NCBI RefSeq assembly: GCF_011006175.1
Contig: NZ_CP048795.1
Coordinates: 1,294,491 to 1,358,490, forward strand
DNA length: 64,000 bases
From: Hydrogenobacter sp. T-8
GTDB lineage: Bacteria > Aquificota > Aquificia > Aquificales > Aquificaceae
Direction of reading: 5' to 3'
Part shown: positions 32,064-49,689 of the stretch, one piece after another
How positions within the stretch are numbered: the stretch's first letter is position 1
How the letters are laid out: the number at the start of each line of letters is the position of its first letter
Position numbers and translations under genes: made by a program
Notes under the pieces: model-generated
Seen by the model: the letters and a program-made list of their open reading frames with translations, nothing else
The model's database searches: none
Told to the model about the DNA's origin: nothing

Positions 32064-32091
32064 ATAATATGCTTTAGTAGATTGTTGTCAA
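32064..32091 (-). promoter_or_regulatory. Promoter of clpB
   Basis: On the minus strand a consensus TTGACA (32086-32091) and TATTAT (32064-32069) are 16 bp apart. It overlaps the last codons of the upstream membrane-protein gene. No CIRCE or other heat-shock operator is seen. Confidence 0.75.
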
Positions 32092-33224
32092 GTTTTTGGT
32101 GGAGGGAAGAAAGCAAGTGGTAGAATTCTAAGGCTGTAGTATATGTTCACAAGCAGGAAGAGTGCGTAAAATATTGAAGAAAGAGTTGGGTTGAAGTTCT
32201 CATTTAGGAGTGCCAGGACAAAGGATGGAAGCCCCGCAAAGAGGTAAAACTTGAGAACTTCGGGATTTATAAGCTCTTTGAGCGTTGGAATCTTCTCTTT
32301 TCCAATCTTTGGTGCGTATACCCTCCACCAGTAGAGGAAGGGGACTATGTGGTAAGAGGCTCCTATGGTGATAAAGAGGAGGAAACCATAAAGCATACCA
32401 TCTCTGTGCCAGCCTATAAATCCATAATTGCCACTTCCGGCGGTGGATATGCCGATGGAGAGGAAGAAAACTGCCATAAAGAGACCGAGTATAAGATAAC
32501 GCACTGATGGGTCTAAGCCTTTGAGAGGGCTTTTCTTCTGAAGAAGGCTCTGGTAGACTACAAAGGCCAGTAAGAAAAAAGAGAGAAGCACAAATAGTCC
32601 AGAATAGGCTACAAGTTTCATGTTTCCCACATGCCAGCCATAAAGAAAAGGCGGGATTGAGAGGTTATGCAAGATAAGACTTATCCACCTTGCCTTTGGA
32701 TGTTTTAGTTCCTCTACCTGAAGCATGGGAACGAAGACATAGTAAGCACCTAATATTACATTAAGAAAAAACCCAGCAGTAAGCGTATGCTTTATCATAA
32801 GAAGGTTCAAATCCATGAGCATAAAAAAGCCAGAAAGGGCAAAGTATACACCTCCAAGCAGGAAGAATACCACAGATGGATCCCTAAGGCTTTTTGTGTT
32901 TATAAGAAGAAAAGCAAGGCTAAGAAGAGCAAAAAGAAAATAGAAATATGGGGAAGATGCAGGTTTGACAAAAAAACTGAAAAGATTGGTTAAAAACAAG
33001 GCAAGGTGGATATATGTTAACCATTCCCACCTTATGGCTATACCCTGTAGGGTAGGATACATCTGGAAAAGAGTGCCCATTATAAGAAGTGGGAAAGCTA
33101 TGAAGATAAGAAGCTCTGTATAGGCTTTCCCAAGGAGCTTAAAAAGGAGTGATAGGTCTATGAGGATAAGGCTGAGGAAGATGTATATAGATGTGAGCCT
33201 TACGAAGGATGCAGGTCTTATCAT
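32088..33224 (-). CDS. Polytopic heme-copper/NnrS-like membrane protein
   Basis: 378 residues with about 11-12 membrane segments and His placed within or beside them: IKHTLTAGFFLNVILGAYYV, LILHNLSIPPFLYGWHVGN, GFIGWHRDGMLYGFLLFITI and GASYHIVPFLYWWRVY. This pattern resembles the heme-copper oxidase subunit I fold and NnrS-like proteins of NO metabolism, without a clear CuB triad. It is the last gene of a five-gene leftward operon with DUF2249, DUF59 and cytochrome c' genes, opposite the nos operon. A role in NO handling or electron transfer in denitrification is inferred from context only. Confidence 0.6.
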   Translation of the reverse strand: MIRPASFVRLTSIYIFLSLILIDLSLLFKLLGKAYTELLIFIAFPLLIMGTLFQMYPTLQGIAIRWEWLTYIHLALFLTNLFSFFVKPASSPYFYFLFALLSLAFLLINTKSLRDPSVVFFLLGGVYFALSGFFMLMDLNLLMIKHTLTAGFFLNVILGAYYVFVPMLQVEELKHPKARWISLILHNLSIPPFLYGWHVGNMKLVAYSGLFVLLSFFLLAFVVYQSLLQKKSPLKGLDPSVRYLILGLFMAVFFLSIGISTAGSGNYGFIGWHRDGMLYGFLLFITIGASYHIVPFLYWWRVYAPKIGKEKIPTLKELINPEVLKFYLFAGLPSFVLALLNENFNPTLSSIFYALFLLVNIYYSLRILPLAFFPPPKT

Positions 33225-33700
33225 TTACCTACGAGCCTTCTAAGTTCTATAAGAAGTTCCTGGAACTTTTCGTCGGACATCCTTCTTATTTTCTTGGCTT
33301 GTCCGAGGTTCACAGTATGGGGTAATATCTTCCTCAGTATAGGGTTCTTAAGGGGCGTGAAGCCATACTTTATAAGCACATCAAGGGCTTCAGGAACCCT
33401 TTTTAAAAGCTCGCCTACGTTGGTATTCTCATCTATCTCAAATTCAAGCTCTTTTGCACATTCGGTTTCTTCAAATCTTAGAGGTTGTGAGGACTTTTTC
33501 CATATTCTAAGAAGGTATCCTTCCTCTGTCTCCCTCAATTCATAGCGGTATCCCAGCTCCTCAAGCCTTGGCAGGAGATGGGTGAAGGGTCTTGAACCAA
33601 GCACCTCAAGGGTCTCTCCCTCCTTAAGCTCCTCAAGAGCCTGAGCAACCTTAATCATAGGCTGTGGTGGTTCAAGGTTTCTCACATCAAGCCTTTTCAT
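33221..33700 (-). CDS. DUF2249-DUF1858 two-domain protein
   Basis: Residues 1-70 form a TusA-like DUF2249 domain (MKRLDVRNLEPPQPMIKVAQ, LEVLGSRPFTHLLPRLEELG). Residues 88-140 match DUF1858 (IDENTNVGELLKRVPEALDV, IKYGFTPLKNPILRK). Both domains are common in denitrification and NO-stress gene clusters, often beside ScdA/Ric-type repair proteins. It overlaps its neighbours by 4 bp on both sides (ATGA), so it is firmly within the operon. No catalytic residue can be named. Confidence 0.78.
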   Translation of the reverse strand: MKRLDVRNLEPPQPMIKVAQALEELKEGETLEVLGSRPFTHLLPRLEELGYRYELRETEEGYLLRIWKKSSQPLRFEETECAKELEFEIDENTNVGELLKRVPEALDVLIKYGFTPLKNPILRKILPHTVNLGQAKKIRRMSDEKFQELLIELRRLVGK

Positions 33701-33945
33701 GGTTCAACCCCGAATAGATATCCTTCAAGCTCCACATCAGCTTTGTAGCCCAGCCCTTCAACCTTTTCCTTAACCGCCTGCAGGAGATAGCTTCCTACAG
33801 GGCAAAAGGGGCTTGTAGGTTTTATTACAACTCTAAGCCTTCCCTGTTCAATCTCTTTCACCTCTCTTACCATGTTCATGCCAACTATATCCATACCCGT
33901 GTGAGGATCAATGACTTCCTTTAAGACCTTCAGCACATCTTCCAT
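33697..33945 (-). CDS. DUF59/MIP18-type iron-sulfur assembly protein
   Basis: An 82-residue single-domain protein with LKEVIDPHTGMDIVGMNMVR and KPTSPFCPVGSYLLQAVKEK, the family pattern in which the Cys of PFCPVG is conserved. Such proteins (PaaD, SufT, MIP18) help mature Fe-S enzymes. The context suggests service to a redox protein of the denitrification genes. It begins 2 bp after the cytochrome gene and overlaps the DUF2249-DUF1858 gene by 4 bp. Confidence 0.82.
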   Translation of the reverse strand: MEDVLKVLKEVIDPHTGMDIVGMNMVREVKEIEQGRLRVVIKPTSPFCPVGSYLLQAVKEKVEGLGYKADVELEGYLFGVEP

Positions 33946-33947
33946 GT

Positions 33948-34358
33948 CTATCTACCCCCTATTCTGTCTCTGAAAAGCTCATGGCAGGCAATACATCCCT
34001 GAAGCATGTTGGTATAAGTCTTAAAGGCTTGGTCCCTTTTGCCTTCCCTTAAAAATTTCATGACCTCCTCCGCACCGCCGTGAACCTGCTTCTCAAAAGC
34101 TGGCATAAATCTCATAAACTCTTCCCTTTTTGATGGGTCTATGTATCGTAGGGGTCCGCCCTTTGGTACGGGGTGTTCTGCTATCTCTCTGGCACCTTCC
34201 AGAACCATGGCATCGTTACCCAAAAGAAAGCCCTGAAGCATCTTGGTGGCTGACTGGTTTACCAATTGCATAACCTGTTTGAAGTTCAGCTCACTTTCAA
34301 CCTCATGAGAAAAACTCAAAGCAAACATCAGAAGTGAAAATACCGCAATCTTTCTCAT
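33948..34358 (-). CDS. Exported cytochrome c'-like/c556-like protein
   Basis: A signal peptide (MRKIAVFSLLMFALSFSHEV) is followed by a four-helix-type sequence with one heme motif CIACHELFRDR close to the C-terminus. C-terminal CxxCH placement is typical of cytochromes c' and c556. Cytochromes c' bind NO and protect against it. The 136-residue length fits. It sits second in the five-gene operon opposite nos. NO binding is inferred; it could also be an electron carrier. Confidence 0.78.
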   Translation of the reverse strand: MRKIAVFSLLMFALSFSHEVESELNFKQVMQLVNQSATKMLQGFLLGNDAMVLEGAREIAEHPVPKGGPLRYIDPSKREEFMRFMPAFEKQVHGGAEEVMKFLREGKRDQAFKTYTNMLQGCIACHELFRDRIGGR

Positions 34359-34359
34359 T

Positions 34360-34848
34360 TTACAACCTCCATATCCTTATCTTCCAAAAGTCCTCTCCAT
34401 AGTCCACATACTCCCACCCAACTTTTCCAGGAAAATTCATAGCTATCTGAAAATAGAGTGGTAAAGGGTCATGGTCGTTTACAATAAAGAAGGTCTCCGC
34501 CTCCTTGAGCTTAGAAAACCTCTCCATTACAAGAGAATGCCTTATACCATGCTCAAGGGGTCTGAGGTCTAAAGTCTCACCCTTTACAAAATTCTCCTGC
34601 CCGAGACTTATCTCGTAAAGAACCACCTTTTCCTCTGGTAGAAAACCAAATATATCAGCCCTCTCCACAAGAAAGTAATAGGGTGCTTCCGCCCTTCCAA
34701 ATCTATGACCGATTATATACCTGCCAGCACCCTTTGAAAGTATGTATAGCCTTCTGTATCCAAAGGCGGAGGGCATAAGCCCCCTTTCCAGGACTCTTAC
34801 TACAAGACCTTCCTTACCAACCCTTCCTTCAGTCAATACTCCGTGCAT
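34360..34848 (-). CDS. DUF2249 protein with a novel N-terminal domain
   Basis: Residues about 95-162 form a DUF2249 domain (LDLRPLEHGIRHSLVMERFS, FIVNDHDPLPLYFQIAMNFP). Residues 1-90 (VLERGLMPSAFGYRRLYILS, AEAPYYFLVERADIFGF) are not recognised. It may be a small-molecule or metal-sensing module. It is the first gene of the leftward operon, with a ribosome binding site (taggaggt) 7 nt before the ATG, and shares the regulatory region 34849-34990 with the nos operon. Confidence 0.7.
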   Translation of the reverse strand: MHGVLTEGRVGKEGLVVRVLERGLMPSAFGYRRLYILSKGAGRYIIGHRFGRAEAPYYFLVERADIFGFLPEEKVVLYEISLGQENFVKGETLDLRPLEHGIRHSLVMERFSKLKEAETFFIVNDHDPLPLYFQIAMNFPGKVGWEYVDYGEDFWKIRIWRL

Positions 34849-35473: not shown

Positions 35474-37453
35474 ATGCTGGGCAAAAAAAAGGTTCTCCTG
35501 GGAGGGCTTTCGGCCCTCGTGGTAGGTTCATTGCTGGCGGGTTGCCCGCCGAAAAAGGAAGCCTTAAAGACAAGTGCTGTGGGTACGGATGCAGCTTCAA
35601 AGGTCTATGTCCCACCTGGTAAACATGACGAGTTTTATGTTTTCTTCTCTGGAGGCTTCAACGGTCAGGTGACCGTATACGGTATTCCGTCAGGGAGAAT
35701 ACTAAAGGTTATAAAGGTCTTCTCAGTTGACCCAGAAACTGGCTATGGCTTTACGCCAGAAACCAGACCTATGCTTATGACTTCACATGGGTTCATACCT
35801 TGGGATGATACTCACCACCCATGGCTCTCTCAGACTAACGGAGAGCATGACGGAAGATGGTTGTTTATAAATGCAAACAACACACCGAGGATAGCAAGGA
35901 TTGACCTAACTACCTTTGAAACAACCGAGATAATAGAAATACCAAACTCTGCAGGAAATCACCCATCACCTTACGGGACTGAGAACACAGAGTATGTGGT
36001 GGCAGGAACAAGGTTCTCAGTTCCCGTTCCCCAAAAGGATGTTCCCATAGATTCCTATGCGCAGAACTTTAAGGGAACAATAAGCTTTATAAAAGCCAAC
36101 GAGCCCGGCAAGATGGATGTTGCCTTCCAAATACTTATGCCCGGCTTTAACTATGACCTTGCGAGGTGTGGAAGAGGTCCATCACATGGTTGGTGCTTTT
36201 TTACCTCCTACAACACAGAACAGGCTCATACACTGCTTGAGATAAATGCATCAAAGAATGACAAGGACTATATAGCGGCGATAAACTGGAAAAGAGCGGA
36301 GGAATGCCTATCTCAGGGTAGGTTTCAGGAAGTGCCCGCGGTCTACTACCACAACTACTATGATGAGAAAAAGCATATGGCTGTTTCCGAAGTCAAAAAA
36401 TCTGTAAAGATGATAAACCCGAAGGACTGCCCTGGAGTTGCTTACCTTTTACCAACACCCAAGTCCCCCCATGGTGTGGATGTCTCCGACGATGGTGAAT
36501 ATATCGTAGGTGGTGGGAAGCTGGCAACGGTCATACCCATACACTCTTTCTCCAAGATGCTAAAAGCCATAGAGCAGAAGGCTTTTGAGAAGGAAATAGA
36601 CGGGGTTCCGGTTCTCAAATATGACGCAGTCCTGCACTGTGAGGTTGAGAAACCCTGCCTTGGACCCTTGCATACGGAGTTTGACGGAAAGGGTTTTGCC
36701 TACACCTCCTGCTTTGTTTCCTCCGAAGTAGTGAAGTATGACTACAAGGGTTGTAAGGTGGTGGATAGGGTGCCTACATACTACTCTGTGGGACACCTGC
36801 TAATACCCGGCGGAGACACCAAAAAGCCCTACGGTAAGTATCTCGTGGCCATGAACAAGATAACCAAAGACAGGCAACTTCCAGTAGGCCCAGAGCTACT
36901 TCAGTCCGCACAACTCTACGATATAAGCGGAGAAAAGATGCAGCTTATCCACGAGTTCTTCACCATAGGTGAGCCCCACTATGCTCAGGCTATCCCCGCA
37001 GATAAGATAAAGGACAAGATTAAGAAAATTTATCCGCTCGCTGAGAACGAACACCCCTATGCGGTAAAGGCTGAAAAAGACGCAAGGGTTGAAAGAAAAG
37101 GCAACGAAGTTCATGTTTACATGACCATGATAAGGTCTCACTTTGTTCCAGATAACATTGAAGGTATAAGAGTTGGGGATACGGTATATTTCCACGTGAC
37201 AAACCTTGAACAAGACTGGGACATACCTCACGGCTTTGCGGTCAAAGGTTCTGAAGAGGCGGAGATTCTTGTCATGCCCGGACAAACAAAGACCCTCGTG
37301 TGGAAGCCAAAGGCTCCAGGTGTTTATCCCTTCTACTGCACAGACTTTTGCTCAGCACTTCATCAGGAAATGCAAGGCTATGTAAGGGTTTCCCCAGCTG
37401 GCTCTAATGTGCCACTCAGATACTACACCGGCACACCAACCACACAGAAATGA
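35474..37453 (+). CDS. nosZ: Nitrous oxide reductase (clade II-like), predicted lipoprotein
   Basis: NosZ reduces N2O to N2. The seven-bladed CuZ domain shows DTHHPWLSQTNGEHDGRW, RGPSHGWCFFTSYN, SPHGVDVSDDGEYIVGGGK and GPLHTEFDGKGFAYTS. The C-terminal CuA domain has C622-TDF-C626-SAL-H630-QE-M633, the complete CuA ligand set. The leader MLGKKKVLLGGLSALVVGSL then LAGC24 is a Sec-type signal with a lipobox, not the twin-arginine leader of classical NosZ; the Sec leader and gene order suggest clade II. The 659-residue length is normal. Confidence 0.95.
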   Translation: MLGKKKVLLGGLSALVVGSLLAGCPPKKEALKTSAVGTDAASKVYVPPGKHDEFYVFFSGGFNGQVTVYGIPSGRILKVIKVFSVDPETGYGFTPETRPMLMTSHGFIPWDDTHHPWLSQTNGEHDGRWLFINANNTPRIARIDLTTFETTEIIEIPNSAGNHPSPYGTENTEYVVAGTRFSVPVPQKDVPIDSYAQNFKGTISFIKANEPGKMDVAFQILMPGFNYDLARCGRGPSHGWCFFTSYNTEQAHTLLEINASKNDKDYIAAINWKRAEECLSQGRFQEVPAVYYHNYYDEKKHMAVSEVKKSVKMINPKDCPGVAYLLPTPKSPHGVDVSDDGEYIVGGGKLATVIPIHSFSKMLKAIEQKAFEKEIDGVPVLKYDAVLHCEVEKPCLGPLHTEFDGKGFAYTSCFVSSEVVKYDYKGCKVVDRVPTYYSVGHLLIPGGDTKKPYGKYLVAMNKITKDRQLPVGPELLQSAQLYDISGEKMQLIHEFFTIGEPHYAQAIPADKIKDKIKKIYPLAENEHPYAVKAEKDARVERKGNEVHVYMTMIRSHFVPDNIEGIRVGDTVYFHVTNLEQDWDIPHGFAVKGSEEAEILVMPGQTKTLVWKPKAPGVYPFYCTDFCSALHQEMQGYVRVSPAGSNVPLRYYTGTPTTQK

Positions 37454-40403: not shown

Positions 40404-41155
40404 TAAAATACGAGCTTTATGACCTTTTAAAGAGCAGATGGATGTTGGGTATAACTGTTTTTTATGGGCTTTTGGTCTATTCGCTAGTGAAATTTGGAGG
40501 TAATACGAGAAAAGCTGTTGTCAGTCATACGAACCTATCTCTTCTCACGCTCCCGCTTTTCTCCCTCCTCCTTTCCATAAACTACTTATACACAAACAGA
40601 AACTTTATTGAATTTGTGTTAACTCAGCCAGTAAAGAGAAGCTTTCTTTTCGCATCCCTTATAATCAGCCTTAGCTTCTCTATCTTTATTAGCTATGCAG
40701 TTGGCTCTAGTTTTGTTTTTTACTATCTTGAGGGCTTTTATCCTCCTTTTGCAAAGACCCTTTCTCTAACAACCTCCCTTATTCCCCTCTTTGTATCCCT
40801 TGGTATTCTCTCTGGACTCCTTGTAGAGGATCGGTTAAAGGGTATCGGGCTTGTGCTACTTCTTTGGCTTTTTTTCTCAGCTATGTATGACGGAATAGTT
40901 CTTTATATAATACTTGCCTTCTCTAACTATCCTATAGAAAAACTCGTTCTTTTCCTTACCCTTTCAAATCCAGTTGACTTTATAAGGCTCAGTTCTCTCA
41001 CGGAAGCTGGTCTTTACGAGGCTATGGGTTTTGTTGGAACATGGGCTAAAAAATACTTAAAAGACCTCTGGTTTTTACCTATCCCTTTGTCCTTTCTATA
41101 CACAGCGGTTATCTTTATGCTTGGACTGATTGCCTTTAAGAGGAAGGATTTTTAG
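40388..41155 (+). CDS. nosY: NosY ABC transporter permease
   Basis: A 255-residue protein with six membrane segments (LLTLPLFSLLLSINYLYTNR; IISLSFSIFISYAVGSSFVF; GIGLVLLLWLFFSAMYDGIV; FLYTAVIFMLGLIAFKRKDF), the membrane part of NosDFY. The start is TTG at 40388, eight bases after gaggagg, and lies inside the end of nosF. LRSGNPVDFIRL-like FLTLSNPVDFIRLSSL is the conserved NosY region. It is followed 10 bp later by a second cytochrome gene. Confidence 0.9.
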   Translation: MLIKLIKYELYDLLKSRWMLGITVFYGLLVYSLVKFGGNTRKAVVSHTNLSLLTLPLFSLLLSINYLYTNRNFIEFVLTQPVKRSFLFASLIISLSFSIFISYAVGSSFVFYYLEGFYPPFAKTLSLTTSLIPLFVSLGILSGLLVEDRLKGIGLVLLLWLFFSAMYDGIVLYIILAFSNYPIEKLVLFLTLSNPVDFIRLSSLTEAGLYEAMGFVGTWAKKYLKDLWFLPIPLSFLYTAVIFMLGLIAFKRKDF

Positions 41156-41165
41156 GAGGTTTGCT

Positions 41166-41510
41166 ATGTGGCTTTTAGTCTTAGTATGTTTGGTTTTCTC
41201 CTGCGATGTCCCAAAAGGGCAAAAGAAAGCTGAGCCCTCGGTTGAGCCTTCAAAGGTAAAGGAGCTTTTCAAAGCAAGAGGATGCACCGACTGCCACGAC
41301 AGAAGAATTGCCCTCGTGGGACCAGCTTTTGTTGAGATAGCTAAAAGATATAGAGGAAGGGAAGAAGCGGAAAGCATGCTTATTAAAAGTATAAGAGAAG
41401 GCTCATGCAGCAGGTGGAAGGCAAGGTGGGAGTGCATGCCACCACAGAGGATTGAAGAAACAGAAGCAAGGGCTATGGTAAGGTGGATTCTGAACCTTAC
41501 TTTAGAATAA
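41166..41510 (+). CDS. Small lipoprotein c-type cytochrome, last gene of nos
   Basis: I choose the ATG at 41166 because taggaggtttgct precedes it; the leader MWLLVLVCLVFSC ends in a lipobox. One heme motif CTDCHDRRIALVGPAFVEIA and a possible Met ligand in WECMPPQRI follow, in a 114-residue protein. It probably forms an electron relay with the first cytochrome of the operon toward NosZ. The 3' end overlaps the convergent cytochrome b fusion gene by 14 bp. Confidence 0.87.
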   Translation: MWLLVLVCLVFSCDVPKGQKKAEPSVEPSKVKELFKARGCTDCHDRRIALVGPAFVEIAKRYRGREEAESMLIKSIREGSCSRWKARWECMPPQRIEETEARAMVRWILNLTLE

Positions 41511-43437
41511 GGAAGTTTCCTGTAGCCTCGTCATAGGTTATCAGCACGCTCTCCTTTGGATTTTTCGGAGGTTCAAACTCAAATTCTTTAACTTTTCCCC
41601 TATGAACTGTTTCTTCTACCCTTATTTTGAGCTTTTGAGCATCACCCTTTAAGAAAAGTTCCTCATAGACAAATATGGAGGCGTCCCTTCTTATACCCCT
41701 TGGTTTGTAAACCTTTGAATATATAAGATTCCCATCCTTGTAAACCTCCATCTTTATTGGAGACCTTTCTTTCACTATAGCACTTTGAGCCTGCATATGT
41801 TTTAAGCCACCTACTTTGACCTGAGCCACCTCTTTGACTGGAGAAGACCTGTATTTAAAGCTCAGGATAACAGCAGAGCTTTGGATTGGATAGAAGGCTA
41901 TTTTGTGGGTGGTAAGCGGATAGAATAGAAATATGGGAATTGCAAGTATGGCGGTAGCAACTGGGTAGTTTAAACTTTCAGTTTTGACGACCTTCACATC
42001 CTGCCCCTCCTTCTTAGAGCTTATAAACTCTTCTATCTCTTTTTCAATAGACTTCACATAAGGAGCTTCAAGGATAAGCACCCGCCCTCCCATAACCTTT
42101 TTCCTAAGTATGGGTCTTCTTTTCCTTTCATACCTCTCTTCAAGCCATTTATTCCCTTCTCTGAAGTAGCAATCTTCATACTCACAGGAAACAAGAACTA
42201 CACCTTCTACACCCATATTTAGAATATCCTCCACATACTTTGTGTTCACAACACCTATACATGGGACAGTAAAGGTAAGGAGTTTTTCCCTTTTTGGCGG
42301 AATCGCACTAAAAGGACAGCGAAAAACCACATAAGAAGCCTTTTCCCTTTCTATCTTTTCCATAGTCTCTTCTAAGGGGAAGGTGGGGATGTCTATAGCA
42401 AGACTGCTGCAAGAGCCAACACATATACCACAACCTGCACACTTACTTTCCTTCAGTAGGGCTTTCTTTTTATTATCATACTCCTCCATTACTATAGCCT
42501 CATAAGGACAGTCTATGTAACATTGTTCACAGCCTGTGCATTTTTCAAAATCAATGCGGGCAGGTGGATTTCTTCTACCTTTTATAAGCCATGGGAAGAC
42601 GAAAAGAAAGGTAAAAAAGCCAAGAAAAATGAGCCAGTTTATGGACATGGGTATGTATTTAAGAAGGGGATAACTAAAAAGGTAAAACCAGTCAACGCTC
42701 ATCTCAAAAGGCAATCTGTTTATATAAGCTGGTGGGTCGCTCTTTGCGGGGAAGATAAGAGAAAGTGTTATGAGAAGGATAGTTATGGTTATGTAAAGAA
42801 ACCTTGGTGGAATAAGTCTCGGTCTGGCGTTTCTCATAACATGAACCCAAAGGGTAAAAACAATGAGTATGGTAAGAGCTATATGGGCAAAGAGCAATAT
42901 TCTGAAAAGACCACCGAGATACTTTATGTCGCTTCCGAGAAAGGCACTCATCAGTGCATCTCCAAAGACTGGCAAGAAGGAAAAGAACTTGGCGGTCAGA
43001 AGTCCAGTGAGCTGTGCCCTTGCGTCCCAAACTAATATGTAACCCGATATTCCTATAGCTAAAAATATAAGAAGGGTTGCCACGCCAGTAACCCATGCAA
43101 CCCATCGGAACATTCTGAACCTGTCCGTTATTATCACATGCACCATATGGGTAAGGGTTGTAAGTATTAAGGCATCAGAAGAGTATCTGTGTATTCCCCT
43201 CATTATGTTTCCCAGGAAATCTTCAGATATTCTTTCCACTGACTGATAGGAGGTTTGAGGGTCTATACTGTAGAAGAAAAAGAGGTAAACACCTGATACT
43301 ACGTCTATGATTAGAAGGAAAATAGCAATAGCACCAAGGTGATAAAGAGGATTGAGCTTTGAGGAAAATAGCCTGCTCATAAAATGAGAGAGCTTCTGAA
43401 AGCCTATGTATAGTGGCTGTATACTTGCCATATGCAT
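41497..43437 (-). CDS. Cytochrome b / 2x[4Fe-4S] / MvhD-like / membrane-anchored fusion protein
   Basis: 646 residues with an unusual order. Residues 1-285: cytochrome b of the bc-complex type, with paired heme His at 83/97 and 185/199 (IMRGIHRYSSDALILTTLTH; FAHIALTILIVFTLWVHVMR). Residues 295-350: two [4Fe-4S] sites (CTGCEQCYIDCPYEA; CAGCGICVGSCSS). Residues 370-450: an MvhD/FlpD-like domain (VPCIGVVNTKYVEDILNMGV; VSCEYEDCYFREGNK). Then a membrane segment near 490-512 and a last beta-rich domain. No Rieske or cytochrome c1 gene is nearby. It may move electrons between quinol and cytoplasmic carriers. It has a good ribosome binding site (caggaggctccc). Confidence 0.8.
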   Translation of the reverse strand: MHMASIQPLYIGFQKLSHFMSRLFSSKLNPLYHLGAIAIFLLIIDVVSGVYLFFFYSIDPQTSYQSVERISEDFLGNIMRGIHRYSSDALILTTLTHMVHVIITDRFRMFRWVAWVTGVATLLIFLAIGISGYILVWDARAQLTGLLTAKFFSFLPVFGDALMSAFLGSDIKYLGGLFRILLFAHIALTILIVFTLWVHVMRNARPRLIPPRFLYITITILLITLSLIFPAKSDPPAYINRLPFEMSVDWFYLFSYPLLKYIPMSINWLIFLGFFTFLFVFPWLIKGRRNPPARIDFEKCTGCEQCYIDCPYEAIVMEEYDNKKKALLKESKCAGCGICVGSCSSLAIDIPTFPLEETMEKIEREKASYVVFRCPFSAIPPKREKLLTFTVPCIGVVNTKYVEDILNMGVEGVVLVSCEYEDCYFREGNKWLEERYERKRRPILRKKVMGGRVLILEAPYVKSIEKEIEEFISSKKEGQDVKVVKTESLNYPVATAILAIPIFLFYPLTTHKIAFYPIQSSAVILSFKYRSSPVKEVAQVKVGGLKHMQAQSAIVKERSPIKMEVYKDGNLIYSKVYKPRGIRRDASIFVYEELFLKGDAQKLKIRVEETVHRGKVKEFEFEPPKNPKESVLITYDEATGNFLILK

Positions 43438-43445
43438 GGGAGCCT

Positions 43446-43498
43446 CCTGTAAATAATCATTTACTAATAATATAAGCCCTTTATTAAATATTTACAGG
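43446..43498 (-). promoter_or_regulatory. Inverted-repeat operator and promoter of the cytochrome b fusion gene
   Basis: CCTGTAAATA (43446-43455) and TATTTACAGG (43489-43498) are perfect 10-bp inverted arms, 43 bp centre to centre (about four DNA turns). On the minus strand the arms overlap the expected -35 and the start region around TATTAT (43467-43472). Within the first arm is a second inverted repeat, GTAAAT-N4-ATTTAC (43449-43464). Confidence 0.6.
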
Positions 43499-43534
43499 TT
43501 TTAATTTAAAGTTAAAATATGATAAATTTAATTA

Positions 43535-43563
43535 TTGACAAAAATATCTTTTGATATTAATCT
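43535..43563 (+). promoter_or_regulatory. Promoter of the oxidase-like operon
   Basis: TTGACA at 43535-43540 is followed after 17 bp by TAATCT (43558-43563), a weak -10. The surrounding 155 bp is very rich in A and T. The first gene begins at 43596 after aaaggaggtgtagcc. Confidence 0.5.
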
Positions 43564-43595
43564 ATAAGTAAGCATTCACCAAAGGAGGTGTAGCC

Positions 43596-43775
43596 ATGGA
43601 GGAAAAGGAAAAGAAGGTGCCTTTCCTTCAGCTGGTGCTGGACGATTTTATGTTTCTGCTTTTCTTAGGGGTCACCATTTATGCGGTCTCTTACCTAATA
43701 TGGGGGCTTCTGGAGTTAGCCTGGCTCTCCCCTATACCCAGCGAAATCAAAGAAAGTCTATTAGGAGGTAAGTAA
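43596..43775 (+). CDS. Small single-span membrane subunit of the oxidase-like complex
   Basis: A 59-residue protein, MEEKEKKVPFLQLVLDDFMF then LLFLGVTIYAVSYLIWGLLE, with one membrane segment and a charged start. It has a strong ribosome binding site and ends 1 bp before the subunit II gene. Position and size suggest an accessory subunit like subunit IIa of ba3 oxidases or CcoQ, although the sequence does not match a family I know. Confidence 0.75.
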   Translation: MEEKEKKVPFLQLVLDDFMFLLFLGVTIYAVSYLIWGLLELAWLSPIPSEIKESLLGGK

Positions 43776-43776
43776 C

Positions 43777-44307
43777 ATGGCACTGCTTCCACCTGAAGAA
43801 GGATGGTATTTTAAAAGGGTCGCAAAGGACGAAAAGATGTGGATAACCATAGCCCTTGTGGTGTGCCTTGTTCTTTTCTTCTGGATGATAGTGTGGCACG
43901 TCTACGGAAAGCAAAACCCCTCTTTCACAACCTACAGGACAACACCTCAAGAATTCAACGCCCTAACGCAGGCTTTCATACAGAAGTATAAGATAGGTGA
44001 AGAAAAGGGTATACCTATAGTAGAACCGCCACCCAACAGTGACGTGTTTCTTCTGGGTAAAATGTGGGCTTGGGAGCCTATACTTGTGCTTAAAAAGGGC
44101 CAAGAATACAGATTCCATATATCCTCCCTTGACCTTCTTCACGGCTTTTCATTACAGCCTGTAAATATGAACTTTATGGTATATCCCGGCTATGATTATG
44201 TGCTTACCTTTAGACCTACTTCCGCCGGAGAGTTCTACATAGTTTGCAATGAATTCTGTGGTATAGGTCATCACATGATGATAGGGAAGATCATAGTAAA
44301 AGAGTGA
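43777..44307 (+). CDS. Heme-copper oxidase subunit II with CuA
   Basis: A 176-residue protein with one membrane segment (about residues 21-43) and an outer cupredoxin domain. CuA ligands are C157-NEF-C161-GIG-H165-HM-M168, with the upstream His122 in SSLDLLHGFSL. All are intact, so it should accept electrons from a cytochrome c. The short form resembles ba3-type (B-family) subunit II. It lies upstream of the subunit I gene by 12 bp. Confidence 0.9.
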   Translation: MALLPPEEGWYFKRVAKDEKMWITIALVVCLVLFFWMIVWHVYGKQNPSFTTYRTTPQEFNALTQAFIQKYKIGEEKGIPIVEPPPNSDVFLLGKMWAWEPILVLKKGQEYRFHISSLDLLHGFSLQPVNMNFMVYPGYDYVLTFRPTSAGEFYIVCNEFCGIGHHMMIGKIIVKE

Positions 44308-44319
44308 GGAGGTTGAGCC

Positions 44320-45987
44320 ATGTTTAGAACTTGTGATATTACCGGATTAAAGGTTGATTTGAGGGCGGAGAAGCTTATACAGCTCAATGCGGTTATGGCT
44401 GTTGTCTCTCTACTCATAGGTGTTATCGCTGCATTACTTCTTGTTCTCACAAGATGGCAAGTGGTTCACCTTCTGCCCGTAGAGTGGTATTACAGGGTTC
44501 TCACCCTTCATGGTCTTAACGCCCTCATATTCTGGATAGTCTTTTTTGAAATAGCGGGACTTTACTTTGGCTCAACTATTGTGCTTAACTCTCGCATGTC
44601 TTCTCCTAAATTTGGCTGGCTCGCTCTAATCCTGATGGTTCTTGGCTTCCTACTTGTAAACTTTACCATACTAAGTGGTAATGCGGATGTTCTTATGACT
44701 TCTTACGCACCATTGCAGGCACATCCTCTTTACTATCTTGGTGTGATACTCTTTGCGGTTGGTGCCCTTACAGGTGTTTTTCTCTTCTTTGCAAACCTTC
44801 TTATAGCAAGGAAAGAAAGAACCTATGGAGATTCCTTGCCTTTATTTACTTTCGGACTTGTTGCAGCAGCAATTATAGCAACTTTAACTCTCGCAACAGG
44901 CGCGATTATATACATTCCTACACTTCTATGGTCGCTTGGAATAATAAAGACTATGGATGCCGGTGTTTATAAACTGGTCTGGTGGGGTCTTGGACACTCC
45001 TCCCAGCAGATAAATGTGACCGCCATGATCGCTGTCTGGTATCTTGGAGCTTTTCTTACCGTCGGTGGAACATCCATAAACGAAAAAGTTAGCAGGTTTG
45101 CCTTCGTTTTCTATGTTATAGGAATAAATGTTGCTTCCGCACATCACCTCCTTGTAGACCCAGGACCAAGCCCAGCCTGGAAGGTTTTCAACACAAGCTA
45201 TATCATGTATATTGCAGTCCTTGCCTCTATGATACACGCCTTTGCTGTTCCTTCTGCGATAGAATCCGCTCAGAGAAGAAGAGGCTATACAAAGGGTCTT
45301 TTTGACTGGCTTAAGAATGCACCTTGGGGCAACCCTGCTTTTTCTGCGGTGCTTCTGTCCATCATAATCTTTGGCTTTATAGGTGGTGTGACCGGTGTTG
45401 TAAACGGTATGGAGCAAACCAACATAATAGTCCACAACACCCTTTCCATACCCGGGCACTTTAAGGGAACAGTTGTGGGTGGAACTACTCTTGCCTTCAT
45501 GGGCGCAACCTATTACTTAATACCTCTTGTGTTCAGGAAGAAGATAGCCTTCTTTGGTCTTGCCAAGATACAACCATGGCTTTTTGGGATCGGTATTGCG
45601 GTGCTTGCGGTTTCCATGTATATACTTGGAGCCTTTGGTGTTCCAAGAAGGCACTACGATATCACCTTCTCCGGCGGACCCTTCACTTACACCTTTAACC
45701 CAGCGGTGGACTTTTTCTGGGTTCTTTTTGCCCTTGGTGGTCTGCTGGCGGTGGTTGGCGCCCTTGCATGGATACTCATAGTTGTCATTTCTGTTTTCTT
45801 TGGTTCTCCTGTAAAAGGTCCTCAAGATATGCAACTTCAATTAGCCTCTCCACCTCCACCTGCAAAGGAAAACCATGGCTTTGAGGCGCCTGGAACTCTG
45901 ACCCTTACCCTCCTCTTCATGGGTGTATTCCTTATATTCCTCCTACTCAACTGGGGATGGCTCTCTGCCATGTGGGAGGTAAGATAA
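44320..45987 (+). CDS. Divergent heme-copper oxidase subunit I; candidate NO reductase
   Basis: 555 residues, about 13 membrane segments, closest in pattern to B-family (ba3) subunit I. Low-spin heme His64 (LTLHGLNALIF) and CuB His226, His275 and His276 (WGLGHSSQQ; ASAHHLLVDPG) are present, as is the proximal His380 (IPGHFKG). Two key residues differ. The cross-linked Tyr four residues after His226 is Gln230, and the second His of the HxH motif is Lys382. Loss of Tyr is seen in enzymes that reduce NO, not O2. With nirS and nosZ nearby and no NorBC, NO reduction is the best guess. Confidence 0.83.
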   Translation: MFRTCDITGLKVDLRAEKLIQLNAVMAVVSLLIGVIAALLLVLTRWQVVHLLPVEWYYRVLTLHGLNALIFWIVFFEIAGLYFGSTIVLNSRMSSPKFGWLALILMVLGFLLVNFTILSGNADVLMTSYAPLQAHPLYYLGVILFAVGALTGVFLFFANLLIARKERTYGDSLPLFTFGLVAAAIIATLTLATGAIIYIPTLLWSLGIIKTMDAGVYKLVWWGLGHSSQQINVTAMIAVWYLGAFLTVGGTSINEKVSRFAFVFYVIGINVASAHHLLVDPGPSPAWKVFNTSYIMYIAVLASMIHAFAVPSAIESAQRRRGYTKGLFDWLKNAPWGNPAFSAVLLSIIIFGFIGGVTGVVNGMEQTNIIVHNTLSIPGHFKGTVVGGTTLAFMGATYYLIPLVFRKKIAFFGLAKIQPWLFGIGIAVLAVSMYILGAFGVPRRHYDITFSGGPFTYTFNPAVDFFWVLFALGGLLAVVGALAWILIVVISVFFGSPVKGPQDMQLQLASPPPPAKENHGFEAPGTLTLTLLFMGVFLIFLLLNWGWLSAMWEVR

Positions 45988-47234
45988 TGCTTTTCTACCT
46001 TTCCCTTTCCCTTTTTTCCCTTATAATGGCTGGCATTTTCGGGCTTCTTATAGCCTTAACGAGGACACCAGCGGTATCACTTCTTAAATCTCCAGAGCTT
46101 TTTTATCATTTCCTTGTAGGGCATGTAACCTTTTCCATAACTGTATGGTTGATGACTTTTACCTTAGCCTTCTGGCACTATAAAGAAGGCAGGAAGGGAA
46201 GGGTTGCACCTCCAGCCACCCTACTGGGCATGCTCCTCCTTTCCCTCTCCTGCCTTTTGCCTTACGGAGAGCCCTATCTGAACAATTACATACCCGTTGT
46301 TGGAACTCCCCTCTTCTATATTGGGCTTTTCCTGTTCTTTTTTGGTTTTCTTCTTGAGGTTCTACAAAGGTTGAGGGATGCAGTTAGACTGAATGAGCTG
46401 TATTCTCTCTCTATTTTTTTTGGACTTCTCACTCTTCTTTCGATACCCCCTTCTTTCCTCATTGCTCACCCCGAGGGTGGCATGAAGCTTTTCTTTGAGA
46501 GGCTCTTCTGGATACCAGGACATTTTCAGCAGTTCATGTATGCTTCTGTAATGCTTGCAGTATGGCATGAACTCCTTAAAAGAAGCTCTGGCAGGGTGGT
46601 AAGCAGTCCTCTGTTGAAAGGTGCTAACCTTCTTCTCTTACTGTTTGCCCTACCACTACCACTGGGCTTCTTTACAGACCCACTTTCTGAAAGCTTCAAA
46701 AAACAGCTGTCCTTCTCCTTTGGGGTTGGGCTCGGCGTGCCTATCCTACTTCACAGCTATTATGTGCTTAGAAATCTTAGGTTAAGCTGGAATGTGGCCA
46801 CCATCAGCCTTCTGTTCTCTATGGTCGTATACCATGTAGGTGCTTTTATAGCTTATGGTGGCATGCAAAGTGACTTGAGAATTCCAGCTCATTACCATGG
46901 TGTTGTCTCAGGCGTAACCATAGCCTTCATGGGCTTTACCTATTATATGCTCAAAGAAAGGCTTGGCTATGTCTTCTGGGAAAGTGTTGCAAAACTCCAA
47001 CCAACCTTCTTCGGCTTAGGAATAAACCTTCTTGTTCTTGGTTTTTATTTGGCAGGCAGTATGGGTGCACCGAGAAAGACATACGGCTTTGAGTATGTTC
47101 AAGATGTAAAGGTTGTCCTTGCCTTGAATGTTATGGGCTTTGGTGGATTGCTGGCGGTGTTTGGTGGACTGCTCTTTATATCCTACGCCACCCTATCTCT
47201 TTTCAGAGGTTACAGAAATGTCAGGTATTTTTAG
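45987..47234 (+). CDS. Second, degenerate heme-copper subunit I paralogue
   Basis: Start ATG at 45987 overlaps the preceding stop (TAATG), after gggaggtaaga. The 415 residues align by motif with the subunit I beside it: His46 (LVGHVTFSITVW), His179 in WIPGHFQQFMYASVMLAVW, and H302-Y-H304 in RIPAHYHGVVSGVTIAFMGF. The paired CuB His of helix VII is reduced to His256-Ser257 (ILLHSYYVL). It keeps the HxH motif that its neighbour lacks but lacks a full CuB site. It may be a non-catalytic or heme-carrying partner subunit. Function unknown. Confidence 0.75.
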   Translation: MLFYLSLSLFSLIMAGIFGLLIALTRTPAVSLLKSPELFYHFLVGHVTFSITVWLMTFTLAFWHYKEGRKGRVAPPATLLGMLLLSLSCLLPYGEPYLNNYIPVVGTPLFYIGLFLFFFGFLLEVLQRLRDAVRLNELYSLSIFFGLLTLLSIPPSFLIAHPEGGMKLFFERLFWIPGHFQQFMYASVMLAVWHELLKRSSGRVVSSPLLKGANLLLLLFALPLPLGFFTDPLSESFKKQLSFSFGVGLGVPILLHSYYVLRNLRLSWNVATISLLFSMVVYHVGAFIAYGGMQSDLRIPAHYHGVVSGVTIAFMGFTYYMLKERLGYVFWESVAKLQPTFFGLGINLLVLGFYLAGSMGAPRKTYGFEYVQDVKVVLALNVMGFGGLLAVFGGLLFISYATLSLFRGYRNVRYF

Positions 47235-47967
47235 CCTTTTACTCCTACTGGTCCTACTGTCGTGGGCTAATGAACTGCTACCTGATGAGAAGAAGACCAT
47301 AGGCACATATGTGCCAGATGTAAGTCTTGAAGATAGCGATGGAAGAGTCTTTAGCATAAAGGGGCTTAACAAGGTTGTGGTGCTGAACCCTATATACACC
47401 AGATGCACCTCCGCCTGCCCACTTATGACGCAGGGACTCAAGAAAGCCATAAAAGACCTTAGGGAAGATCTCGTAGTCCTTTCCCTGACCTTTGACCCTA
47501 AGGACGGTCTTGAGGACCTTAGAAGGTTTAGAGAGGTTCACAACCTGCCAGAAAACTGGTATGTGGTAAGGAGTAAAGAAGCAGAAAAACTCCTGCGAGC
47601 CATAGATTACAGGTATAGGTATGATGAAAAGCTCGGGGAATTTGACCATCCCAACCTTTATGTGGTGCTTACACCCTCTGGAAGGGTGTCAAGATACCTG
47701 TATGGTGTTAACCCAAAGCTTAGAGACCTTGAGCTTGCAGTGCTTGAAGCCAAGAGGGAAGAGGTCAGGCTGAGCCCCATTGAGGGCTTCTGGTTGAGAT
47801 GCTTTAGGTATAACCCAGAAAGGGGAACTTACGAGGTGGATTGGTTTTTTGTTCTCAACGTAGCAGGAGGAATGTTCACCTTTACCCTTGTTCCCGCCCT
47901 TGTGTGGGGCAAAGGCATTTACAAGTTCTTCAGGACAATTCCTTATTTTTTAGTGAAAAACTCTTGA
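47218..47967 (+). CDS. SCO1/SenC-type copper chaperone with C-terminal membrane anchor
   Basis: I choose the ATG at 47218 (MSGIFSLLLLLVLLSWANEL), a signal peptide; it overlaps the preceding gene by 17 bp. The thioredoxin-like domain has C63-TSA-C67 and His144 (EFDHPNLYVV), the copper ligands of SCO proteins. A final hydrophobic segment (FVLNVAGGMFTFTLVPALVW) anchors it. It should load the CuA site of subunit II in this operon and perhaps that of NosZ. 249 residues, slightly long because of the C-terminal anchor. Confidence 0.9.
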   Translation: MSGIFSLLLLLVLLSWANELLPDEKKTIGTYVPDVSLEDSDGRVFSIKGLNKVVVLNPIYTRCTSACPLMTQGLKKAIKDLREDLVVLSLTFDPKDGLEDLRRFREVHNLPENWYVVRSKEAEKLLRAIDYRYRYDEKLGEFDHPNLYVVLTPSGRVSRYLYGVNPKLRDLELAVLEAKREEVRLSPIEGFWLRCFRYNPERGTYEVDWFFVLNVAGGMFTFTLVPALVWGKGIYKFFRTIPYFLVKNS

Positions 47968-47992
47968 CATATGGTAAACAATTACTTATATT
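47964..47992 (+). promoter_or_regulatory. Promoter of nirS with operator-like repeat in the spacer
   Basis: TTGACA (47964-47969) and TATATT (47987-47992), 17 bp apart, form a near-consensus promoter. In the spacer lies GTAA-ACAA-TTAC (47974-47985), the same inverted half-sites as at nos. A bound regulator here would block RNA polymerase. The ribosome binding site is taaggaggtcatagcc. Confidence 0.65.
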
Positions 47993-48030: not shown

Positions 48031-49689
48031 ATGGGTAAGAAGGTATTGCTAAGCGGTGTGCTGGGGGCTGTTGCCCTTGCGGGTAGTATGGCGGTGGTTT
48101 ATGCACAAAACCAGAAGAAGGAGGAGCTTCCCCCTCCTCCACCTATAACAAAGGAGGAGATGGAGATAGCCAAGCAGATCTACTTTGACAGGTGTGCAGG
48201 ATGTCATGGAACCCTGAGGAAAGGGGCAACAGGTCCGAAGCTTACGCCTGACAGAACGCGTCAACTTGGGACAGAAAGTCTCAAGGTATTCATCACCTAT
48301 GGAACTCCCGGTGGTATGCCTGACTGGGGAAGGCAAGGAATACTAAGCGACAAAGAGATAGACATATTGGCAAGGTTTTTGCAGCATGACCCACCTGCAC
48401 CTCCAGAGCTATCCCTTGCTGACCTGAAAAAAACTTGGAAGGTTTATGTTCCACCAGAAAAGAGACCTAAAAAGCCCGAGCATGATAGAAACTGGCAGAA
48501 TTTCATGGGTGTGATACTTAGAGACGTGGGCAAGGTGGCAATAATTGATGGTGATACGAAAGAGCTTGTAAACATAGTGGATACAGGCTTTGCAGTTCAT
48601 ATAATAAGATACTCCGCCTCTGGTAGATATATGTATACCATTGGAAGGGACGGAAAAGCAACCATAGTGGACCTATGGATGAAAAAACCCGACACCGTAG
48701 CGGAAGTTAAAGCCTGCAACGATGCAAGGTCCATAGACTCCTCAAAATACAAAGGACCAAAGGGAGACTTTCTTGATAAGTATGCCATAATTGGATGCTA
48801 CTGGCCTCCAATGATGGTGATACTTGACGGTCAGACCCTTGAACCGCTAAAGCTAATATCCACAAGCTCCTATACCTACGACACTAACGAGTTTGTAAGG
48901 GAGGCAAGGGTAGCCTCCATAGTAGCTTCTCATCATGACCCAGAATGGATTGTGAACATAAAAGAAACTGGTCAAATATGGCTCGTAGACTACTCCAATA
49001 TAAAGGCCCCAAGGATAACCATGATTGAAGCGGAAAGATTTCTGCATGACGGCGGATGGGATGCTTCAAAGAGGTATTTCCTTGTTGCGGCCAACTTTAG
49101 GAATAAGGTCTCTATGGTAGATACTAAGGAGAAAAAACTCGTAGCCAACATAGAAACGGGTAAGATCCCTCATCCCGGTAGAGGTGCTAACTTTATTCAT
49201 CCACAGTATGGACCTGTATGGTGCACTGGACATCTTGGTGAAAACACTATTGCCTGCATAGGCACAGACCCCAAGAGAAAGGAATACTTTGCAAAGGTTG
49301 TGGCAAAGGTTGAACTTCCAGGCGAGGGCGGTGGAAACCTCTTTATAAAGACCCATCCTAAATCAGAAAACCTCTGGGTGGACAGACCACTCAACCCTGA
49401 TCAAAAACTACAAAGAAGCGTGACGGTTCTTGATAAAAACACTCTCAAGGTTAAAGCCCAGATAGAAATACCTCCAGAGTTTCAAGGAAGGGCTGTTCAT
49501 CCAGAGTATAACAAAGACGGCACCGAGGTATGGATTTCTGTATGGGGTAAAAAGGGCGAGCCAGAAAAGCAAGCTATACTCGTATACGACGACAAGACCC
49601 TCAAACTCAAGCACGTTATCAGAGGTGACTGGGTTGCTACTCCAGCTGGTAGGTTCAACGTATACAACACAATGAAGGATATCTACTGA
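48031..49689 (+). CDS. nirS: Cytochrome cd1 nitrite reductase
   Basis: NirS reduces nitrite to NO in the periplasm. Signal peptide to about residue 25 (AVVYAQ), heme c motif C55-AGC-H59, then an eight-bladed heme d1 propeller. The expected d1 His is His190 (DTGFAVHIIRYSASGRYMYT), and the catalytic His pair are His301/302 (IVASHHDPEWIVN) and His339 (ERFLHDGGW). 552 residues is standard. It is the first gene of nirS-nirN-like-V4R-nirJ-nirF-nirE, and its stop abuts the next start. Confidence 0.96.
   Translation: MGKKVLLSGVLGAVALAGSMAVVYAQNQKKEELPPPPPITKEEMEIAKQIYFDRCAGCHGTLRKGATGPKLTPDRTRQLGTESLKVFITYGTPGGMPDWGRQGILSDKEIDILARFLQHDPPAPPELSLADLKKTWKVYVPPEKRPKKPEHDRNWQNFMGVILRDVGKVAIIDGDTKELVNIVDTGFAVHIIRYSASGRYMYTIGRDGKATIVDLWMKKPDTVAEVKACNDARSIDSSKYKGPKGDFLDKYAIIGCYWPPMMVILDGQTLEPLKLISTSSYTYDTNEFVREARVASIVASHHDPEWIVNIKETGQIWLVDYSNIKAPRITMIEAERFLHDGGWDASKRYFLVAANFRNKVSMVDTKEKKLVANIETGKIPHPGRGANFIHPQYGPVWCTGHLGENTIACIGTDPKRKEYFAKVVAKVELPGEGGGNLFIKTHPKSENLWVDRPLNPDQKLQRSVTVLDKNTLKVKAQIEIPPEFQGRAVHPEYNKDGTEVWISVWGKKGEPEKQAILVYDDKTLKLKHVIRGDWVATPAGRFNVYNTMKDIY

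Follow-up and report, generated by a model that had tools for sequence, protein, structure and literature searches.

Several respiratory enzymes have dedicated membrane-bound iron-sulfur partners: NapGH in the case of nitrate reductase, NosR or NosGH in that of nitrous-oxide reductase and CcoG in that of the cbb3 oxidases. To our knowledge, no comparable membrane iron-sulfur partner of a nitric-oxide (NO) reductase has been described. The product of one such enzyme, eNOR, is the greenhouse gas N2O, and its genes are often misannotated as those of an oxidase.

The hallmark of eNOR is a glutamine in subunit I, which takes the place of the cross-linked active-site tyrosine (PMC8756737). Table A3 of the same study contains, as one entry and without comment, an open reading frame (RME88945.1) that combines a C1 cytochrome c, a cytochrome b6, a DMSOR-beta-like 4Fe-4S and an FlpD domain (PMC8756737). 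CcoG (PMC7558416), which sits beside a heme-copper enzyme, has a layout like that of the protein described in the following. This protein, in which a cytochrome b is joined to iron-sulfur domains and a β-sandwich tail, is referred to here as the fusion; in the literature that we searched, which did not extend to a paper on the diversity of eNOR published in PNAS in 2024, we found no functional description of it.

We analyzed a 64,000-nucleotide stretch of the Hydrogenobacter sp. T-8 genome, in the following called the window (Table 1). The initial annotation of this DNA had described a single 646-residue chain comprising a cytochrome b, two [4Fe-4S] sites, an MvhD-like domain, a further membrane segment and a β-rich tail. 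Pfam matches and AlphaFold models bear out this composition; the gene lies on the minus strand.

Table 1. Features of the fusion locus and its surroundings in the window
Feature	Position	Strand	Basis
Whole fusion gene: cytochrome b / 2x[4Fe-4S] / MvhD-like / TM / β-sandwich	41497-43437	-	646 aa
Cytochrome b core, six helices, residues 1-292	42562..43437	-	PF00033, PDB alignments, ligand invariance
2x[4Fe-4S] ferredoxin unit, residues 293-350	42388..42561	-	Fer4 families; HdrA C-terminal ferredoxin in PDB
MvhD/FlpD-like domain, residues about 366-478	42004..42342	-	PF02662; MvhD chain alignment
Seventh TM helix and periplasmic β-sandwich tail (predicted), residues 490-646	41500..41970	-	AlphaFold models; separate Defluviimonas gene
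Divergent promoter region common to fusion and eNOR operon	43438..43595	.	Perfect palindrome inside
59-aa one-helix protein, opens eNOR operon	43596..43775	+	Sequence; Defluviimonas counterpart
eNOR subunit II, COX2-like cupredoxin, CuA motif CNEFCGIGHHMM	43777..44307	+	PF00116
eNOR subunit I, heme-copper, HSSQQ	44320..45987	+	PF00115; active-site alignment
SCO1/SenC-type copper-site assembly protein	47128..47967	+	PF02630
NirS, cytochrome c-cd1 nitrite reductase	48031..49689	+	PF02239, E 1e-130
NosZ, clade II nitrous-oxide reductase	35474..37453	+	TIGR04246, 967 bits

In Pfam, the Cytochrome_B family matches residues 21-200 of the fusion (E 1.3e-18), Fer4 families match residues 293-345, and FlpD matches residues 388-471 with 40.4 bits at a gathering cut-off of 22.3; in NCBIfam, the ferredoxin-MvhD unit as a whole (residues 293-476) matches the C-terminal part of HdrA2 (E 9.5e-19). 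Likewise, the cytochrome b part aligns with cytochrome b chains of b6 and bc1 complexes in the PDB, and the MvhD/FlpD-like domain can be aligned to MvhD chains. The heme ligands, two bis-His pairs (H83/97 and H185/199) on helices B and D, and the eight ferredoxin cysteines (C300, 303, 306, 310, 333, 336, 339 and 343) are found as initially annotated, and the MvhD/FlpD-like cysteine pattern claimed there consists of C374, C393, C418 and C423. The chain contains exactly these 12 cysteines and none beyond the Fe-S ligands; none of the 12, and none of the four histidines that would bind heme, varies among 20 Aquificota sequences and a Defluviimonas relative of about 31% identity. The ef loop, MSVDWFYLFSYPLLKYIP, aligns with IKPEWYFLFAYAILRSIP of bc1 and carries the variant motif x-D-W-F versus PEWY; given the presence of this loop, the core corresponds to helices A-F.

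The predicted cofactor set comprises two b hemes, of which His83/185 would ligate that on the periplasmic side and His97/199 that on the cytosolic side, two [4Fe-4S] clusters and one [2Fe-2S] cluster, which the MvhD-type site is predicted to hold. With the established topology of cytochrome b as a guide, homology and helix count would place the Fe-S domains in the cytosol and the tail in the periplasm. AlphaFold models predict a seventh helix (about residues 491-510) followed by the β-rich tail, with a mean pLDDT of 74 for the tail; the model of the whole protein was of poor quality (mean pLDDT 61, shallow alignment). A fold search of the PDB with the tail returned generic β-sandwich matches (best Z 8.8), such as carbohydrate-binding, transthyretin-like, PepT and HGSNAT luminal domains, which have no bearing on function, and the tail has no conserved cysteine.

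The fusion is found in 21 of 136 Aquificota genomes, including the source genome, and in none of them is it interrupted by internal stops. The copies outside the source genome are 50-81% identical, and all but that of G065, which is truncated (residues 227-643), are essentially full length. This rules out a sequencing error or false join of two genes as the origin of the fusion, one of two outcomes that the initial annotation had named as refuting it; the other, relatives confined to genomes without N-oxide or ferredoxin metabolism, was also not what we found. A search for the same domain order, as proposed there, yielded 20 further Aquificota carriers, all of which also have eNOR. Beyond these, a single scan of genome contigs returned close relatives only, a search of our plasmid collection yielded one distant relative (Defluviimonas), and among the 398 genomes of the phylum of G136, searched for the fusion, G136 alone was positive. 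Its contig WUQU01000272.1 (L022), filed under a Candidatus Bathyarchaeota MAG, carries an Aquificota nos/fusion cluster at 75% identity; it is likely an Aquificota sequence misplaced by a binning error.

The quinone-type cytochrome b and cytosolic Fe-S sites had been suggested to serve an adjacent 'oxidase-like' system, which fits our data, and this neighbour is, as judged from its sequence, an eNOR-type nitric-oxide reductase, followed by a NirS operon. Subunit II, a cupredoxin with a CuA motif and 47% identity to its Defluviimonas counterpart, is encoded directly upstream of subunit I. In every Aquificota eNOR with the site covered by the alignment, the active-site tyrosine is replaced by glutamine (GHSSQQ or GHPSQQ); the paralogous ba3-type proteins that we aligned, matches of 29-32% identity, keep the tyrosine of oxygen reductases (HPVVY). 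The protein encoded by the first gene of the operon resembles a 60-residue protein in the same position in Defluviimonas and is probably an overlooked small eNOR subunit. Across the further loci that we read, the constant set is the fusion, a divergent COX2-CuA gene, eNOR subunit I, SCO and NirS, the exceptions being a short contig without a clean COX2 call (L035) and L022, which stops short of the operon. NirS is usually followed by heme d1 genes, i.e. those for a second cd1 protein, a NirJ-like radical SAM protein and a NirF-like protein.

Helix X of eNOR subunit I deserves a separate remark. In heme-copper enzymes, the second histidine of the HxH motif in this helix usually ligates the low-spin heme. 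In the window, the corresponding sequence is GHFKG (near residue 379), and a lysine occupies the position of this histidine in all aligned Aquificota eNORs and in the Thermus eNOR (L083-L099, L102, L063); the Defluviimonas and Thermomicrobium eNORs retain the histidine. This pattern suggests His/Lys ligation or an altered low-spin heme in the lysine-bearing enzymes. Between the eNOR and SCO genes lies a second heme-copper subunit-I-like gene (45957-47234), whose 425-residue product lacks the CuB His-His pair and retains the HYH of helix X; it is restricted to nos-bearing loci of g1 and g7 and absent from g6. A small lipoprotein-like cytochrome c (41130-41510), likewise not present in g6 loci, is encoded convergently with the fusion, with the 3' ends overlapping by 14 bases. 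Finally, a divergent block adjoining nos (32088-34848) encodes a multi-helix membrane protein, a DUF1858/DUF2249 protein, a DUF2249 protein and a small protein with the sequence CIACH that may bind heme.

Within the Aquificota, the fusion and eNOR subunit I occur in the identical 21 genomes, never one without the other; the identity of eNOR subunit I in these genomes is no lower than about 71%. In 19 of them, a single contig carries both genes in head-to-head orientation, separated by about 0.9 kb, and in two fragmented drafts (G065 and G074) they are on separate contigs. Joint presence amounts to 4 of 14 genomes in genus g1, 14 of 17 in g6 and 3 of 5 in g7; under independent shuffling within genera, the probability of exact agreement is about 1.5e-7, a figure that serves as a guide only, given linkage and shared ancestry. 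Furthermore, the trees of both proteins have their major splits in common. NirS is found in 51 of the 136 genomes, 33 of which lack the fusion, and among 61 genomes searched for both, ten have a strong NosZ match and no fusion; conversely, NosZ is missing from the fusion carriers G018 and G033. On these distributions, the dedicated partner of the fusion is eNOR and not Nos, and we regard its association with eNOR as highly probable. Since the fusion is confined to eNOR carriers in the Aquificota, it most likely supplies electrons to eNOR or activates it.

Two links drawn in the initial annotation fare less well. A role in the nos cluster is rejected on distribution, and an Hdr/Mvh-type bifurcation partner is unsupported: the neighbours scanned in the window and in further neighbourhoods include no hydrogenase, formate dehydrogenase or Hdr partner, an FlpD profile search of the source genome matched no gene besides the fusion, and 132 of the 136 genomes, with or without the fusion, encode CCG-domain (HdrB-type) proteins. 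The absence of NosR/NosGH and of Rieske, cytochrome c1 or cytochrome f partners, the first three of which had been noted before, holds among the neighbouring proteins scanned with profile libraries.

The fusion and the eNOR operon may also be controlled together. Their common divergent region contains the perfect palindrome GTAAATAATCATTTAC (43449-43464), and the pattern GTAARTN4AYTTAC is found in the divergent region of most loci scanned, close to where the fusion or the eNOR operon begins; in L029, it falls at the beginning of the fusion ORF itself. Weaker copies directly precede nirS in the window (47974-47989, with two mismatches), in L034 and in L024. The palindrome is a candidate operator of a denitrification regulator; as the pattern was derived from the scanned regions themselves and is, at two mismatches, not rarer than chance window-wide, we take it as a lead and not as proof. 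A scan of the fusion/eNOR intergenic region for FNR-type sites gave nothing consistent. In the window and in g6 genomes, genes for Rrf2 regulators lie in the vicinity of the cluster; that these regulators bind in this region is speculation.

On a plasmid of Defluviimonas sp. SAOS-178_SWC, the fusion is represented by two adjacent genes, encoding a 526-residue cytochrome b-ferredoxin-MvhD protein (WP_347309654.1), annotated as a cytochrome b N-terminal domain protein and nothing more, and a 172-residue protein (WP_347309655.1), which aligns with the fusion tail over the whole β domain (hhalign 96.5%, E 7.6e-10). The gene order is 60-residue protein, COX2, eNOR subunit I, CyoE, SCO, cytochrome b-ferredoxin-MvhD protein, 172-residue protein and hemerythrin. 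That the two parts are fused in Aquificota and adjacent in an alphaproteobacterium is good evidence that the cytochrome b/Fe-S half and the β tail work together and that both are tied to eNOR.

By contrast with this operon, no relative of the fusion lies beside the eNOR-like genes on Thermus, Thermomicrobium and Haloarcula plasmids, and the whole records of the Thermomicrobium plasmid and of the Thermus plasmid TTHNAR1 gave no match to it. The Thermus and Thermomicrobium proteins carry glutamine at the tyrosine site and are valid eNORs for this comparison; the Haloarcula protein keeps the active-site tyrosine, which makes it a probable oxygen reductase and unsuitable as a comparison. As some eNORs have no neighbouring fusion, eNOR chemistry does not depend on the partner in all cases, and it seems that only part of the family uses it.

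As the best explanation, although one about as easily doubted as believed, we tentatively propose that the fusion relays electrons across the membrane specifically for the neighbouring eNOR and feeds its turnover. Electrons would enter either at the MvhD/ferredoxin end from a cytosolic Fe-S donor or at the cytochrome b from the quinol pool, would travel through the [2Fe-2S] and [4Fe-4S] sites and then through the two b hemes that span the membrane, and would leave on the periplasmic side, where the β-sandwich tail may dock to the CuA subunit of eNOR or to a c-type carrier serving it. Delivered in this way, electrons could reduce NO without dependence on bc1 alone. The cluster types, topology, direction of electron flow and CuA docking in this scheme are inferred. 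What we observed directly, namely the domain order, the invariant ligands, the exact co-occurrence with eNOR in Aquificota, the divergent arrangement and the split form in an alphaproteobacterial operon, is consistent with such a relay, as are the major splits common to both trees, the glutamine of the partner and the retained PEWY-like stretch, and as is the continuous line of predicted redox sites from cytosol to periplasm beside an NO reductase with a CuA entry site, and a dedicated relay could well be the most economical reading of this anatomy, though one to be held with reserve. RME88945.1 argues in the same direction, because a c-type carrier sits in the same chain. Against the relay speak the Thermus and Thermomicrobium plasmid eNORs without a neighbouring fusion gene, the lack of a periplasmic redox center after the hemes in the Aquificota fusion, and the bc1-type genes of the source genome, which could feed a CuA enzyme via cytochrome c (two Rieske genes lie elsewhere in this genome, one of them adjoining its second cytochrome b). 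A stricter version, in which the single chain is eNOR's own ferredoxin-to-periplasm line and carries low-potential cytosolic electrons through Fe-S sites and hemes to CuA, is rather improbable; if it holds, NO respiration would not depend on bc1 and might gain additional charge separation.

The position of the Defluviimonas gene, directly after two assembly genes (CyoE and SCO), fits maturation equally well, and SCO is also part of the Aquificota operon. The fusion could thus be a maturation or activation reductase for eNOR, as CcoG is for cbb3 or NosR for NosZ, a possibility that we consider less likely than the relay but its main rival. Cytosolic electrons might then pass through the Fe-S sites and hemes to reduce copper (e.g. 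SCO-bound) or an active-site intermediate during assembly and not during turnover. The layout of membrane helices, two cytosolic [4Fe-4S] clusters, an extra helix and a periplasmic β domain matches that of CcoG/FixG, and the occurrence of some eNORs without the fusion would also agree with an assembly role. However, the fusion offers no cysteines other than its Fe-S ligands, its tail shares no His/Met/Cys copper motif with the Defluviimonas tail protein, and CcoG gets by with much less than a quinol-type cytochrome b. Homology of the tail to FixG has no sequence support either: Pfam did not detect the FixG_C Ig-like domain in the fusion, and an hhalign comparison with FixG of S. meliloti gave a probability of 0.4%.

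Improbable, in our estimate, is an oxidoreductase between ferredoxin or another low-potential carrier and quinone, which would feed the quinone pool in denitrification and be linked to eNOR by shared regulation only. While the retained quinone-type cytochrome b, the match of the ferredoxin-MvhD unit to the end of HdrA2 and the possible common operator would suit it, the fusion tracks eNOR alone and neither NirS nor NosZ, Hdr-type proteins are spread through the phylum independently of it, and the periplasmic tail, kept even as a separate gene, would have no role. That the fusion substitutes for NosR/NosGH as the electron donor of NosZ is very improbable and largely refuted by distribution, since the fusion and NosZ are found without each other and the Defluviimonas gene belongs to an eNOR operon, even though the fusion of g1 and g7 genomes has the nos cluster on one side and the eNOR cluster on the other and no NosR/NosGH was identified there.

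The conserved partner can serve to recognize one branch of eNOR operons in genomes, and it makes testable where a CuA-type NO reductase of anaerobic thermophiles obtains its electrons or metal sites. Its individual parts have counterparts in known systems. Like the cytochrome b of bc1 and b6f complexes, it has bis-His pairs, helices A-F and a PEWY-like ef loop, but Fe-S domains replace helices G and H, and the loop motif is xDWF. With the C-terminal unit of HdrA2, it shares the succession of a ferredoxin and an MvhD-like domain in one chain, whereas HdrA2, a component of soluble heterodisulfide reductases, is itself soluble and flavin-based and has hydrogenase/Hdr partners. Among whole proteins, RME88945.1 likewise unites cytochrome b6, 4Fe-4S and FlpD in one chain and comes from a study of NirS/eNOR genomes; compared by its table entry alone, it differs in having a cytochrome c domain and no listed β tail. 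WP_347309654.1 has all ligands of the fusion and stands beside eNOR, but is more distant in sequence and has its tail encoded by a gene of its own. CcoG/FixG (RdxA), the cupric reductase for cbb3, resembles the fusion in its membrane helices, two cytosolic [4Fe-4S] sites and last helix, and its periplasmic Ig-like domain may correspond to the predicted β sandwich of the fusion; it has neither heme b nor an MvhD domain, while the fusion lacks its copper-site cysteines. Lastly, NosR, NosGH and NapGH are, like the fusion, membrane Fe-S proteins devoted to one N-oxide reductase, but the fusion, in which Pfam detects no NosR-type FMN-binding domain, is built on a different membrane core, and its partner is an NO reductase.
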